Position numbers and translations under genes: made by a program. This document shows positions 25,902 to 43,732 of a stretch of 64,000 bases of DNA, in pieces (the stretch's first letter is position 1; each line of letters begins with the position of its first letter). The notes under the pieces are model-generated. The model saw nothing but the letters and a program-made list of their open reading frames with translations. It did not search any database and had not been told where the DNA came from. The stretch spans positions 310,001 through 374,000 of the forward strand of contig NZ_JANINP010000001.1 of assembly GCF_024508665.1 (NCBI RefSeq). Direction: 5' to 3'. This stretch comes from Sphingomonas sp. Its GTDB lineage: Bacteria > Pseudomonadota > Alphaproteobacteria > Sphingomonadales > Sphingomonadaceae.

Positions 25902-27116
25902 ATGGCATCCGCCGCCGAACTCGATCGTCCGTCCGACGCACTCGAGAATTTCCGTTCCGAAGTCCGCGACTGGCTCGCCGCCAATTTCCCCGCGTCGCTC
26001 AAGGGCAAGGGCAATGCTCTCGCCAGCGTCGAGGGGCCGACCCAGGAAACGCCGGAGATGACGGCGTGGCGCAAGGCAATGGGTGAAAAGGGCTGGGGCG
26101 TGCCGACCTGGCCGAAGGAATATGGCGGCGGCGGGCTCAGCCGTGCCGAGGCCAGGGTGCTGGCGGACGAGATGGCGCGCGTCGACGCGTGGAATCCGAT
26201 CGGCGGCATGGGCGTGATGATGTTCGGTCCGACGTTGCTCGAATATGGCAATGAAGCACAGAAGCGCGAGCATATCCCGGCGATCGCCAAGGGCGAAGTG
26301 CGCTGGTGCCAGGGGTATTCCGAGCCGAATGCCGGCTCGGACCTCGCCAATCTCCAGACCTTCGCCGAGGACAAGGGCGATCATTATCTGGTCAACGGCC
26401 AGAAGACCTGGACTTCGGGCGGACAATGGGCGGACAAATGCTTCTGCCTCGTCCGTACCGACAAGACCGAAAAGCACAAGGGCATCAGCTTCCTGCTGAT
26501 CGACATGACCTCACCCGGCGTCGAGGTGAAGCCGATCAAGATGATCAGCGGCATGTCTCCTTTCTGCGAGACCTTCTTCACCAACGTGAAGGTGCCCAAG
26601 GAGAATCTGGTCGGCGAGGAAGGGCAGGGCTGGACGATCGGCAAGCGCCTGCTCCAGCACGAACGTACCAATCTGTCGGGCGGCGGCTCGCGATTGCAGC
26701 CGAGCGGGCCGGGGCTGCCCGACATGGCCAAGAAATATGTCGGCACCGATGCCGAGGGTCGGATCGCCGATCCTGATCTCCGCGCGCGGATCGCCAAGTT
26801 CGAGATGGATTGGCGCGCCTTCCTGCTGACCGCGATGCGCGTCCAGGCCGAATCCAAGGCGAAGGGCGGCGTGTCCGAAGTATCGTCGATCCTCAAGACG
26901 ATCGGCACCAAGCTCGGCCAGGAACGTGCCGAGCTGACGATCGAGATCAGGGGATTGCAGGGTCTGGGCTGGGGAGGCGAGGGCTTCAGTGAAGCCGAAC
27001 TGCACGAGGTGCGCGCCTGGCTCTTCGGCAAGGCGACGACGATCTATGGTGGGTCGACCGAGATCCAGAACAACGTGATCGCCAAGCGCATCCTGGGGAT
27101 GCTGGATCATCAATAA
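25902..27116 (+). CDS. Acyl-CoA dehydrogenase, large-subunit type (pair 1)
   Basis: FAD enzyme of 404 residues that oxidises acyl-CoA to the 2-enoyl-CoA. Domains: N-terminal alpha (1-150), beta (WCQGYSEPNAGSDLA, then NGQKTWTSGG), C-terminal alpha. The canonical Glu of the YEGT motif is replaced: IYGGSTEIQ carries Gly there, so the base must lie elsewhere or in the partner. It is followed 98 bases later by a shorter paralogue lacking the TxEIQ motif. Such tandem large/small genes often encode alpha2beta2 dehydrogenases, as in actinobacterial steroid side-chain breakdown, where two half-sites complement one another. ATG at 25902 follows GAGGAGAGG. Confidence 0.9.
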   Translation: MASAAELDRPSDALENFRSEVRDWLAANFPASLKGKGNALASVEGPTQETPEMTAWRKAMGEKGWGVPTWPKEYGGGGLSRAEARVLADEMARVDAWNPIGGMGVMMFGPTLLEYGNEAQKREHIPAIAKGEVRWCQGYSEPNAGSDLANLQTFAEDKGDHYLVNGQKTWTSGGQWADKCFCLVRTDKTEKHKGISFLLIDMTSPGVEVKPIKMISGMSPFCETFFTNVKVPKENLVGEEGQGWTIGKRLLQHERTNLSGGGSRLQPSGPGLPDMAKKYVGTDAEGRIADPDLRARIAKFEMDWRAFLLTAMRVQAESKAKGGVSEVSSILKTIGTKLGQERAELTIEIRGLQGLGWGGEGFSEAELHEVRAWLFGKATTIYGGSTEIQNNVIAKRILGMLDHQ

Positions 27117-28491: not shown

Positions 28492-31400
28492 ATGACCAAG
28501 ACAAGGTTGCTTTGCGCCTGCGCGATTTCCGTATTTGCGGTATGCGCGGCATCTTCGGCGGCTGCGCAATCGACGCCGGCGGCGGACCCGCAGGACACCG
28601 GCAGCACACCGGATATCATCGTTACTGGATCGATCATCAGGGGGACGCCCGAGGATGCGGCGCTGCCGGTCAACGTGATCGGCGCCGATGAACTCCAGAA
28701 GCAAGGGTCACCGTCCGCTGTCGAATTGCTCAAGGCGTTGCCGACATCAAGCGCGGTACTTGGCGACTCGAACCAGTTCGACAGCCGTTCGCAAGGCGCG
28801 GAAGGCATCGCCACCGCCAACCTCCGTGGCTTATCGCCGCAGCGAACTCTCGTGTTGCTCAACAATCGGCGCCTGGTCACGGCCGGCAATGGTGTTCCCG
28901 CCGTCGATATCAATCTAATTCCGTCCGCGGCGATCGGCCGTATCGAAGTGCTCAAGGACGGTGCGGCGGCGACCTATGGATCGGACGCGGTCGCCGGCGT
29001 GGTCAATTTCATCACGCGTACCGACCAGGAAGGGTTTCGCGCTTCCGCCGCCTATCGTTGGGTCAAGGATACAGACGGCGATATCGACGCGTCGCTGAGC
29101 TACGGCCATGTCGGCAACGGCTTCCGGATGCTTGCCGCTATCGGCTTCAATAAGCGCGGCCAGTTGCTGGCACGCGATCGCGATTTCGCGGTCCAACCCT
29201 TTCTCAACAATCCGCAAGGCGGTTGGACCGGCGGTGGTAACCCGGCCAACTTCCTCCTGGTTGGTCCGAGTGCAACCCCGGGCGTCGTTACCCCTTATAC
29301 GGGTGTCGTGGCCGATACGAGCTGCGTTCCGTTGGGCGGGTATCTCGGCGCAAACGGCCGTTGCTCGACACAATATACCGGGTTCGACACCCTGGTGGAT
29401 CTCGAGAAGCGCATTACCGCCTTCACCGATGTCGAGGTCGATCTGGGTGGCAGCCACAAATTCGAGGTCACCGCGCTGTATGGACGCACGACGGTCCCGC
29501 ATTACCTGACCTCGCCGTCCTACCTGCTGACGCAATTGCCCTCGACAGTGTCGCTCGGCGGTTCGGTGGCGAACACCAGCCTCGGCCTGGGTTTCTACGT
29601 ACCGGCCAACAATCCGGGATTCATCGCATACAAGGCCGCCAATCCCTCGCTTTTCATCAGCCCGGTGACGGGCAATCCTTTACCGGCGAGTGGAGCTGTC
29701 TTCCCATTATTGTTGTTCCGCCCATATATGGCGGGCGGCAACCCCTCCACGCTCGGGGATTCGGGTGAGACCGGTTCGGCGCGCGGCATGCGCAAGTCGG
29801 AATCAATCCGTTTCACGGCCGAATTCAGCGGCAAATTGGCGCCGAATCTCAATTACAGCCTGTCGGCGACCTACCACCAATATTACCGCTATATCGACGG
29901 CTACGACTCGTTCGGCGACCGCATCCAATTGGCCTTGCGCGGTTTCGGAGGGCCCAACTGCACCGGGAACGTGCCGGGCGCGAACGGCTGTATGTGGCTC
30001 AACCCGTTCGGCAATGCGGTAACCGCTGGCGCGATCAACGGTACGACCAACCCGCAAGGCAATGCCGCTTTGGCCAATAGCAAGGCGCTGACTGACTGGT
30101 TCTTCGTGCGGTCATCGACCGCGGTCGATTCCCAACTGTTCGTGCTCGACGGCAATATCAGCGGCTCGACCGGTATCAAGCTGCCAGGCGGCGACATCCA
30201 GTTCGGCGTAGGCGCGCAATATCGCTACAATTGGTTCGATACGAAATATGCCGCGAACAACAATCTGGCGGCCAATCCCTGCCGCGACACGCCCATTACC
30301 GGCAACACAAACCCCGCGGCATGCGCACCGACATCGGGCGTCACGCCGAGTCCCGCGACAGGCGCGCTGGCATTCCTGGGTACCAACCGCGACAGTTTCC
30401 TGAAGGGCGGCGTCAAGGCCGTGTTCGCCGAATTGCAGCTTCCGGTGTTCGACAGCTTCAATGTCCAGGCGGCCGTGCGATACGAGGATTATGGCGGCTC
30501 GGTCGGTTCGACCGTCGATCCCCAGGTCCGCGCGCGTTGGCAGGTCACCGACTGGCTGGCGATCCGCGGCGGATACGGAACGACGTTTCGCGGCCCGACG
30601 CTGGCGAACATAACCAACAATTTCGTGACCGCGCTCCAGCTAATTGGGACGACGTTCAAGCCGGTAGACGTCTACGGCAACCCCGCGCTCAAGCCCGAAA
30701 GCTCCGAAAACTACTCGGCCGGCATTCTGTTGAAGTTCGGCGGGTTCAACGCCAGCGTGGACTATTTCCGTTACAACCTGACCGACGTCATCGTCAGCGA
30801 TCCGCTGAGCGCGATGGTCGCTACATTGTTCCCGACGGGAATGCCCAATACCTGCGCCGCGAATGCGGGTCTTGCCGCCCGGTTCACCTTCTCGACCGGC
30901 GCGTGCACGGGGGCGACGACCGTTGCCAACATCGCGCGCGTCAAGACGATGTACCAGAACGGCGCTACCCAGCGTAACGACGGGCTCGATTTCAGCGTCA
31001 ATTACCGGTCGAACCAGTTCCTTGGCTCAGATATCCGCTTCGGCATCGGCGCGGACGCCACGCGGACGCTGCACAACCGGATCAGCGCGATCTTCGTGGC
31101 AGGAACGAAGGTTCAGGACGCGTTCGATGGGGTCGGGCTGCTGAACTATCAATCGACATTATATCCGGTGCCGAAGTGGAAGGGGCAGGCGTATCTCGAC
31201 CTTGGTGCCGGCCCGGTCGATGCAAGACTGACCGTCAACTATACCGGCGGGCTGCACGACCAGCGCTACGATACCAGGACGGGGCCATTCGCACCCAATT
31301 GCGCGCTGGGTTTGAAACCTGGGGCGACCGGTCCCTGTGTCGATAGCGGTCTGACACCGAACGCCGCGAGCATTCTGACCGGAGCGGACCTCAACGACTT

Positions 31401-35707: not shown

Positions 35708-35784
35708 CGTCGCCCCGGCGGAGGCCGGGGCCGCGATGTTGCAGGAACCAAAAGTTAGCGGCCCCGGCCTGCGCCGGGGCGACG
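35708..35784. repeat. Palindromic intergenic repeat, family A
   Basis: Arms 35708-35734 and 35758-35784 (CGTCGCCCCGGCG...), 27 bases with one mismatch. It fills the spacer between the dehydrogenase and alcohol dehydrogenase genes. Confidence 0.85.
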
Positions 35785-37958: not shown

Positions 37959-38034
37959 CGTCACCCCAGCGAAAGCTGGGGTCTCAAGCGGCGGCGCAAT
38001 TCGGCACGAGATCCCAGCTTTCGCTGGGATGACG
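37959..38034. repeat. Palindromic intergenic repeat, family B
   Basis: Inverted arms CGTCACCCCAGCGAAAGCTG (37959-) and CAGCTTTCGCTGGGATGACG (-38034). It fills the kinase/SDR spacer. A sibling lies at 43651-43731. Confidence 0.8.
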
Positions 38035-38048
38035 AGTAGGAGAGAAAG

Positions 38049-40075: not shown

Positions 40076-40849
40076 ATGCGCAAGTTTCTCATCGGCTTGG
40101 TGACGCTTGGCGTGCTCGCATCTGCGGCGCCCGCCTTTGCGCAAGACAATGGTGGCGGTGGCGACGGTACCGGGGAAATCATCGTTACCGGGTCGCTGAT
40201 CCGCAAGCGTAACAGCGATGATCAACCCAAGCCGGTCGTCCCACCCGCATCGGTGCAGATGCTTCGCCGGACGGCCGATTTCGCCATCCAGCAGGTCGTC
40301 GTGGAAAGCGACACGGTCAACGAGGACGACGCCAGGAAGGAAGTCCTGGCGATGGTGCGCAAGGCGATCGACCTGGCAGGCTCATCAGGGGTGCTGGTCG
40401 CGAGCGGCGATATCGTGGTCGAGCCGTTGACTATCGGCAACTACACTGACCTCAAGCCGCTTGACGGCGACGATGACGACAACGACCCGGACGACAAGAT
40501 CGAGGGTCAATTCGTCAAATTCCTCGTCAAGGTGCCACTGGCCCCAGGGATCGAGGCCAGGATCGCGCTCGCCAAGATCGACCAATTCATCAAGAAAGTG
40601 CCGCAAGTCGGCCGGGCCCAGATGAAGCCGTTCAGCGACCTCACGCTGAGCGTGGTCAATCCTGAGCAGTATCGCGGTGCTATCATTGATCTCGTAGCCA
40701 AGGATACCGCCGCTACCAGCGCGAAGTTCGGGCCGGGCTACGGCGTCGAAGTGACCGGGCTCGACAAACCGGTGCAATGGAAGCGTGCAAGCATGACCGA
40801 GGTGCAGCTGTTCCTGCCGTCCAACAGCACCACACGGCCGCGCAACTGA
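40076..40849 (+). CDS. Exported paralogue 1, TonB-receptor-like N-terminus
   Basis: Unrecognised protein of 257 residues with a signal peptide (1-23, ending FAQ). The mature start GEIIVTGSLIRKR closely resembles the DIIVTGSIIRG segment of the TonB receptor at 28492, yet no plug or barrel follows. The rest is one globular alpha/beta domain with an acidic loop (DGDDDDNDPDDK, about residues 131-142). The C-terminal half (LTLSVVNPEQYR, KFGPGYGVEVTGL) is shared with the next gene. The layout recalls SIMPL/DUF541 proteins, but that is tentative. ATG follows CAGGGGAGGG; TTGACA lies about 50 bases upstream. Confidence 0.8.
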   Translation: MRKFLIGLVTLGVLASAAPAFAQDNGGGGDGTGEIIVTGSLIRKRNSDDQPKPVVPPASVQMLRRTADFAIQQVVVESDTVNEDDARKEVLAMVRKAIDLAGSSGVLVASGDIVVEPLTIGNYTDLKPLDGDDDDNDPDDKIEGQFVKFLVKVPLAPGIEARIALAKIDQFIKKVPQVGRAQMKPFSDLTLSVVNPEQYRGAIIDLVAKDTAATSAKFGPGYGVEVTGLDKPVQWKRASMTEVQLFLPSNSTTRPRN

Positions 40850-40871
40850 GCGCCGGGAAAGGGGGGAAGTT

Positions 40872-41594
40872 GTGCGCATCATCGTCTATAGCCTAACCGC
40901 CGTCGCGATCCTTGCCGGCACCGTGCCGGCCACCGCGCAGGAAGTCATCGTCACGGCGCAGCGGCGCGCGGCAGGCGACTATAATGGCGGTTACGCCAAC
41001 GGTGTCGTCTCCGCCCAGCGACCCATCATCACGCTCAAGCGCTCCGCCGATTATATCGTCCGCAGCGTCAAGCTGATCGGCGATGCGCGCGACGCGACGG
41101 TGAGGATGAACGATATCAACGCGACATTGCGCAACATGATCGCCACCGCACCCAAGGCCGGGGTCGAACTCGCGCTTGGCGACTATGTCGTCGAGCCGTT
41201 GACCGAGGCCAATTATCGCAACCTCGCTTATGCCAGCGATGGCCGGCCGGACACGTCGATGACGACGTTCCTGGTCAAGGTGAAGCTGGTGCCGGACATG
41301 GACATTCCGGCGGCCAAGACGAAGATCGATCGCTTTATCGACTCGGTGGCCAAAGTCGGCCGCTCGACGCTGGCGACGACGGGTGAGCCCACCCTGTCGG
41401 TCGTCAATCCTGATCAGTATCGCGGCCAGATCGCCGATCTGATCGCCGCCGACGCGGCGAAGATGTCGGCAAAGTTCGGCCCGGCTTATGGCGTCGAGGT
41501 CACCGGCCTCGACCGGCCGGTCGAATGGGCACGGGCGAGCCCGCTGGAAGTATTTTTGTACCTGCCCTCGACCTACATCGTTACGCGGCGATAA
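40872..41594 (+). CDS. Exported paralogue 2, TonB-receptor-like N-terminus
   Basis: Unrecognised protein of 240 residues, paralogue of the preceding gene and 22 bases after it, so surely co-transcribed. A signal peptide (1-22, ending TAQ) is followed by EVIVTAQRR, again a TonB-receptor-style mature N-terminus. Shared blocks with paralogue 1 include LRRTADF/LKRSADY, GDYVVEPLT, LSVVNPDQYRGQI and FGPAYGVEVTGLDRPVEW. It lacks the acidic loop. GTG at 40872 follows GGGGGGAAGT. It ends 3 bases from the convergent tesB gene. Function unknown; a periplasmic or outer-membrane-linked role is inferred from the signal. Confidence 0.8.
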   Translation: MRIIVYSLTAVAILAGTVPATAQEVIVTAQRRAAGDYNGGYANGVVSAQRPIITLKRSADYIVRSVKLIGDARDATVRMNDINATLRNMIATAPKAGVELALGDYVVEPLTEANYRNLAYASDGRPDTSMTTFLVKVKLVPDMDIPAAKTKIDRFIDSVAKVGRSTLATTGEPTLSVVNPDQYRGQIADLIAADAAKMSAKFGPAYGVEVTGLDRPVEWARASPLEVFLYLPSTYIVTRR

Positions 41595-43650: not shown

Positions 43651-43731
43651 CGTCATCCCAGCGAAAGCTGGGATCTTGTCGATCTTGGCGTGCGCTTGCG
43701 GCGCGAGATCCCAGCTTTCGCCGGGATGACG
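43651..43731. repeat. Palindromic intergenic repeat, family B
   Basis: Arms CGTCATCCCAGCGAAAGCTG (43651-) and CAGCTTTCGCCGGGATGACG (-43731), one mismatch. It fills the spacer of dehydrogenase pair 2. Confidence 0.8.
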
Positions 43732-43732
43732 A

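Follow-up and report, generated by a model that had tools for sequence, protein, structure and literature searches.

Two neighbouring genes of a Sphingomonas sp. encode exported paralogues, here called protein A and protein B. They are probably soluble periplasmic proteins in which a divergent SIMPL domain follows a disordered N-terminal arm with a working TonB box. Periplasmic location, disorder and TonB binding are predicted, and the link to TonB rests on sequence conservation and covariation. Both genes lie in a window of 64,000 nucleotides, the whole stretch of DNA that was analysed.

Architecture of the pair and relationship to SIMPL proteins

The gene of protein A (40076..40849, plus strand, 257 aa, ATG start) was defined by open reading frame, translation and relatives. 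After a gap of 22 bp, the gene of protein B follows in tandem (40872..41594, plus strand, 240 aa, GTG start; open reading frame and translation). The two proteins share 40% identity over 261 columns (E 1e-46) and are paralogues. Both consist of a signal peptide, a TonB-box-like motif, a linker and a SIMPL-like domain. The signal peptides, read from the sequence by eye, comprise residues 1-22 of protein A (40076..40141, plus strand) and of protein B (40872..40937, plus strand) and end with AFA|Q or ATA|Q. No lipobox cysteine was seen by eye in either protein. The motifs were located by sequence, genome pattern search and box score. EVIVTA of protein B (residues 24-29, 40941..40958, plus strand) starts one residue past the likely cleavage site. 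EIIVTG of protein A (residues 34-39, 40175..40192, plus strand) is preceded by an 11-residue glycine-rich spacer after the signal peptide. The SIMPL-like domain covers residues 59-257 of protein A (40250..40846, plus strand) and residues 51-240 of protein B (41022..41591, plus strand). Domain profile, AlphaFold2 model and profile-profile comparison support both assignments, together with a structure search for protein B.

The initial annotation had described a secreted paralogue pair with the motif right after the signal peptide and with neither plug nor barrel. The coordinates, the identity and the signal peptides bear out the pair. The position of the motif is exact for protein B and slightly loose for protein A because of the spacer. 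The absence of plug and barrel agrees with the lengths of the proteins: neither matched a Pfam or NCBIfam family at E ≤ 10, and none of the 81 matches of the genome to the plug domain PF07715 lies at the locus. A sequence search against solved structures gave nothing meaningful, and a plasmid collection had no match to protein B.

The domain had been thought to belong to no recognised family; this needs correction. It is a divergent relative of SIMPL/DUF541 (PF04402) and not a Pfam member, based on a Pfam-passing relative, a profile-profile comparison and a model ranking taken together. Proteins A and B do not reach the PF04402 gathering score (0 families at E ≤ 10). Among relatives, four of the 34 members of set A1 matched PF04402 at E ≤ 1, one of the relatives exceeding the Pfam cut-off (32.3 vs 25.2 bits, E 1.6e-7). 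Ten further members provided two weak matches (E 0.0026 and 0.07). A comparison between profiles of 102 family domains and 33 SIMPL domains yielded Prob 72 and E 3.4e-5 over 141 columns in a collinear arrangement; reversed decoys had Prob 0.3 and 0.4. Two SIMPL loci with cut flanks (L353, L355) were left out of this wider SIMPL set. The signal was clear only with the wider alignments: earlier hhalign comparisons, in which 34 or 36 family sequences were set against 20 SIMPL sequences, gave weak values (P 0.084 and 0.014).

AlphaFold2 models of protein A and protein B, calculated from shallow alignments of 10 sequences, had pLDDT values of 76.6 and 75.9. A mostly confident mixed alpha/beta domain starts at about residue 60 in protein A and about residue 50 in protein B. 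The residues ahead of the domain are of low confidence. A check of the SIMPL fold, proposed with the initial annotation, placed the same SIMPL structure first for both models at modest scores. VIA-align ranked 7c50, a Campylobacter SIMPL-like protein, first with Z 8.6 over 170 residues and Z 8.5 over 176 residues. Protein B aligned to BP26 (4hvz) with Z 8.0 over 169 residues. Other leading rows had tied Z values, with shorter, unrelated matches to about half of the domain; thus, the fold alone is no proof. Foldseek E values for both models were above 0.001, and the best 50 rows for protein A contained no SIMPL structure, whereas VIA-align ranked SIMPL first.

The pair resembles SIMPL/DUF541 proteins, including BP26, in this remote homology. 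It differs by the additional N-terminal arm with the TonB box and by a divergence too large for Pfam. Canonical SIMPL genes (YggE is also a SIMPL/DUF541 protein) are separate genes in the genome of the window. Of 39 genomes sampled in the family of the window, its own genome among them, 38 had such genes, as did six of the seven other member-bearing genomes of the dialect analysis below, G034 being the one without. The Pfam entry PF04402 describes SIMPL/DUF541 as of unknown function. A TonB link, if true, would provide a molecular handle on these proteins.

Spread of the family and conservation of the motif

The distribution across sphingomonads, suggested earlier as a check, was determined with profile A5, built from the domain alone (36 sequences) with the motif removed. 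It matched in 48 of 396 genomes of the order, 3 of 385 genomes of the class and 10 of 398 genomes of the phylum, and in 36 of 105 genomes of f153, one other family of the same class. The family is therefore patchy and well represented in the order of the window. Members outside this order occur in other orders and at least once in another class (L154). Member sequences were not fetched for six f153 genomes (G1194, G1174, G1143, G1197, G1152 and G1210). Relatives include proteins of Sphingomonas canadensis, S. kyeonggiensis, Sphingomonas sp. ERG5, Sphingopyxis sp. PET50 and a Sphingomonadales MAG. Tandem pairs are also present in S. canadensis, S. kyeonggiensis and Sphingomonas sp. ERG5, as well as in the genomes G144, G103, G759 and G780 and several genomes of genus g550. 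In one set of loci, the full-length members have 233-275 aa.

A search with protein A in 246 genomes of the order found matches in 41. Domain-length relatives were detected in 25 of them, the genome of the window included, and N-terminal matches only in the other 16. These N-terminal matches (19 rows) fall within query residues 1-138 and concern open reading frames of 791-1150 aa, a length as expected for receptors.

The genome of the window contains 65 sites for [DE][IV]xVT[AG], searched as a degenerate DNA pattern, and nine for the backward control; hence, the motif in the pair is not due to chance. Forty-three of the 65 sites are located at most 200 nt upstream of a PF07715 plug, in support of the annotation of the N-termini as TonB-receptor type. 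A true TonB receptor of the window illustrates this arrangement, with the DIIVTG codons at 28612..28628 (plus strand) and the plug at 28651-29001. Three further sites (L074, L083, L095) were assigned to divergent receptors by eye. The remaining 19 sites are the two of the pair and 17 others, for which no signal peptide was seen just ahead (at most 50 upstream residues each, by eye). After a signal peptide, the strict motif thus occurs in this genome only in receptors and in proteins A and B, as judged by eye. One site, L115 (C7:1212527, minus strand), was rejected as another motif-bearing N-terminus: it corresponds to the C-terminal part of a protein with YD/RHS repeats. This part has EIVITGTK, DIVVTGTR and DIIVSASR in series, an unexpected place for TonB-box-like peptides.

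Conservation among orthologues was quantified on 101 distinct members with upstream sequence, duplicate domains being removed beforehand. A scoring matrix drawn up after the motif had been seen gave 84 of the 101 members a box score of 8 or higher and 89 a score of 7 or higher; among 2020 shuffles of the upstream sequences, 26 reached 8. The pattern V[TS][AG], counted without use of the score, was present upstream in 84 of the 101 members. The motif is also carried by members that the motif-free profile A5 found in other orders and another class. Lack of conservation among orthologues, named initially as grounds against the motif, is thus not what was found. The group f153 contributed 23 high scorers (at least 8) out of 37 members, and all others 61 out of 64. 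One high scorer, L163 (first gene), scores via DAQVTG, and EVLVNA is the likelier box. Among the 89 members scoring at least 7, 88 have retained V4 and 85 have retained T5; the score itself favours both residues.

The 12 low scorers are ten second tandem paralogues of genus g550, which belongs to family f153, together with L030 (DAMVEG) and L028. L028 was counted unmended, and L031, at a contig end, was excluded from N-terminal counts. Near position 1414, L028 has a TVVVTGSR-like N-terminal part in another frame than the domain, due to a frameshift or an assembly error. The second paralogues of g550 have DQIVAQSN or similar in place of the box. In these pairs (among them L206, L208, L209 and L211), one paralogue keeps the box, for example RDERIVVTG, and the other has lost it. 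The box-less paralogue is a natural comparison partner for the box-bearing one.

Box, domain and linker were compared between box-bearing members. In 454 pairs with a domain identity of 45-60%, the identical fraction was 0.65 for the box, 0.51 for the domain and 0.21 for the linker. In closer pairs, box and domain were similar (0.68 vs 0.66 and 0.79 vs 0.80) and the linker was less conserved. About half of the identical box residues were encoded by different codons. The box is kept at the protein level within a freer linker, and the changed codons under conserved residues indicate protein-level selection, not recent copying.

The motif could simply be beta strand 1 of the SIMPL domain, its likeness to a TonB box being a by-product of strand composition. 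Strand 1 of canonical SIMPL proteins is indeed similar, with LDIVATG, DIVATG in L040, L043 and L044 and DITATG in L038. Several observations make this reading quite improbable. The place of strand 1 seems to be occupied by PxxGL(R/K)R instead of the motif. In the Pfam-passing member, profile position 11 aligns with residue 54, and EVLVTA is at residues 30-35. The linker between box and domain varies from 5 to 27 residues, and the dialect matching described below would be unexplained. In the AlphaFold2 model of protein B, a strand is predicted at residues 54-58 and the motif is unfolded. For both proteins, the initial annotation had named a buried position within a known fold as a counterargument. 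The models place the motif upstream of the domain, in a stretch with pLDDT mostly below 50 from shallow alignments.

That the motif follows the signal peptide both in receptors and in the pair might also reflect an export or outer-membrane sorting feature common to exported proteins of these bacteria. A shared surface-targeting signal had been offered initially. Canonical SIMPL proteins, most of them with signal peptides by eye, speak against it. Their upstream regions reached a score of at least 8 in 0 of 20 and 1 of 13 cases, the single case (L351) being inside the signal peptide; hence, 0 of 33 reached it outside. A score of 7 was obtained in 3 of 20 and 2 of 13. Together with the restriction of the strict motif to receptors and the pair in the genome of the window, this leaves a sorting feature as highly improbable.

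TonB-box dialects and the proposed role at TonB

Receptor boxes differ between genomes. From eight genomes, 150 PF07715 plugs were read from the top of the E-value lists, all 22 in G1075 and part of them in the other seven, and 145 boxes were found. The dialect is [DE]I[IV]VT in the genome of the window (G000), LEEI in G034, LEEV in G898, R(Q/L)xTV in G1075 and G1212, LGE in G1050 and RDVV or RDRV, often with VIT, in G1227. Member boxes in the local dialect include RQQTVTVTA (G1075), RQQSVVVTG (G1212), QRDMVVITG (G1227) and ALEEVIVTA (G898). Their receptor counterparts are, for example, RQQTVTVTG for RQQTVTVTA and SRDRVVITG for QRDMVVITG. The common stretch can extend past the core (GSRI, AQRR). 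Dialects seem to be specific to lineages (RDVVVIT in g550 and LEEIxVTA in f5 are examples) and could serve to predict TonB partner specificity.

The match was evaluated with one member per genome, protein A for the genome of the window and the box-bearing paralogue for G1227. Permuted assignments were as good as the true one in 254 of 40320 cases, in 10 of 5040 without G034, whose member has lost the box, and in 241 of 40320 when the comparison was limited to the six positions that end with the third of the box. These figures are a guide and not a strict probability, because the seven other genomes were not random (picked after the member motifs and before the receptor boxes had been seen), four of the eight genomes are from f153 and the members are related. 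The own dialect ranked first for member boxes in four of the eight genomes. Held-out receptor boxes ranked their own genome first in a mean of 4.73 of eight over 200 draws. The misses were G1212 and G1178 in second place, G1178 with a negative score, G1050 in fifth place and G034, whose member has lost the motif, in seventh place. For protein B, the dialect of its own genome ranked second. Overall, the member motif tends to follow the TonB-box dialect of its host genome.

The arm might bind another partner that recognises receptor N-termini, such as a second force transducer like TolA, a periplasmic chaperone or protease, or the receptor plugs. The data fix only a short motif common to members and receptors of one genome and under like constraint, and the inclusion of residues beyond the core would suit such a partner. 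Against this, TonB is the known binder of the motif in receptors, where TonB boxes are described as short N-terminal sequences binding TonB (PMC7142613, PMC11658791). A partner other than TonB is accordingly improbable. Since receptor boxes bind TonB, the simplest reading of a soluble exported protein with a box arm is a TonB client. That the pair engages TonB or competes for it, as envisaged in the initial annotation, is the reading that the sequence evidence favours.

Like TonB-dependent receptors, proteins A and B have, at the sequence level, a signal peptide followed by a TonB box that often matches the local dialect; they differ from receptors by the lack of plug and beta-barrel. TolB of the Tol-Pal system is exported and soluble and has a disordered N-terminal arm, as predicted for the pair. 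The TolB N-terminus is reported to bind TolA III by strand augmentation, a mode called ‘analogous’ to that of TonB and TonB boxes (PMC8928145). The arm of the pair may bind TonB as that of TolB binds the TonB-like C-terminal domain of TolA; the pair differs in having a TonB-type box, which tends to track the boxes of receptors. The beta-propeller of TolB is absent: there was no Pfam match, and the models are mixed alpha/beta domains. Colicins and pyocins with TonB boxes and the FusB-ferredoxin system are likewise non-receptor cases reported to contact TonB or a TonB-like protein (PMC7593965). Those proteins are taken up from outside, whereas the pair represents the cell's own exported proteins with signal peptides.

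The most likely role of the pair would be regulation by docking to TonB: the proteins would occupy TonB or pass it on in cells in which many receptors share it (81 plug matches in this genome). This role is less certain than the predicted binding to TonB. For a TonB-box pentapeptide, inhibition of TonB-dependent processes in vivo has been reported (Tuckman and Osburne 1992, as cited in PMC7142613), so a natural soluble box protein would be a testable regulator. As second choice, the pair may be a client that TonB pulls for work in the periplasm. TonB would then pull a SIMPL oligomer held at the outer membrane or the cell wall, without regulating TonB supply. TolB offers a precedent (PMC8928145). 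TolA does mechanical work of this kind on TolB-Pal. BP26, a SIMPL protein reported to assemble into barrel-like 16-mers, would suggest a large body to pull (PMC12915080). Neither a lipobox nor another anchor was seen by eye in proteins A and B, and no recurrent neighbour gene suggests a cargo, which renders pulling unlikely, less so than a partner other than TonB. Since BP26 forms 16-mers, a ring of SIMPL-like subunits with many arms is possible.

For the family as a whole, the case is evenly balanced that these soluble periplasmic proteins of several proteobacterial orders are direct, cell-encoded clients of the TonB motor, neither receptor nor bacteriocin, with a box that co-evolved with the receptors of the lineage, and that through the box they regulate TonB supply or have work done on a SIMPL oligomer. 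In the current view, TonB works for outer-membrane receptors and bacteriocins act as parasites. If true, a soluble protein that is conserved and uses the dialect of the receptors would add a class of TonB client. Sphingomonads are reported to have very few TonB-complex genes and many receptors (PMC7142613); the pair would suggest how a small number of TonB complexes is shared among tens of receptors. For this SIMPL branch, divergent but conserved and equipped with a TonB box, the sources searched gave no name. The matches listed for the open-access literature (titles and abstract starts, preprints excluded) included neither a link between SIMPL and TonB nor a cell-encoded soluble TonB-box protein. 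The one paper containing both words, SIMPL and TonB (PMC7529437), reportedly concerns antimicrobial-peptide resistance. Passages of a 2025 study on TolA/TonB evolution do not mention such proteins (PMC12204202).

Genomic context and repeats of the window

The pair is flanked by catabolic genes for acyl-CoA dehydrogenases, a thioesterase and dehydrogenases. This cluster is kept in close relatives, on both sides at L001 and L003 and upstream at L002. Flanks of 59 loci were compared with gene families defined by one example each and, among f153 loci, with L155 only. Among these loci, 18 have rpoC in the flanks, 10 have a serA-like gene and 9 have a gltX-like gene, with partial overlap. A functional link of the pair to its catabolic neighbours, considered as a candidate, was not supported: flanks elsewhere hold these and other genes. 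As flanks differ outside close relatives, no pathway can be assigned from neighbours. Neither a receptor nor a ton gene was prominent among the recurrent neighbours listed.

The window also contains repeats. A GC-rich palindromic repeat close to CGTCGCCCCGGCGGAGGCCGGGGCC is present in five copies at 27115, 35702, 38814, 48438 and 56390 and looks like a REP-type element. The copies at 35708 and 38820 match over 80 nt, with an inverted second arm. A second, short repeat forms a pair at 38002-38035 and 43699-43732 with the sequence GAGATCCCAGCTTTCGC(T/C)GGGATGACGA.
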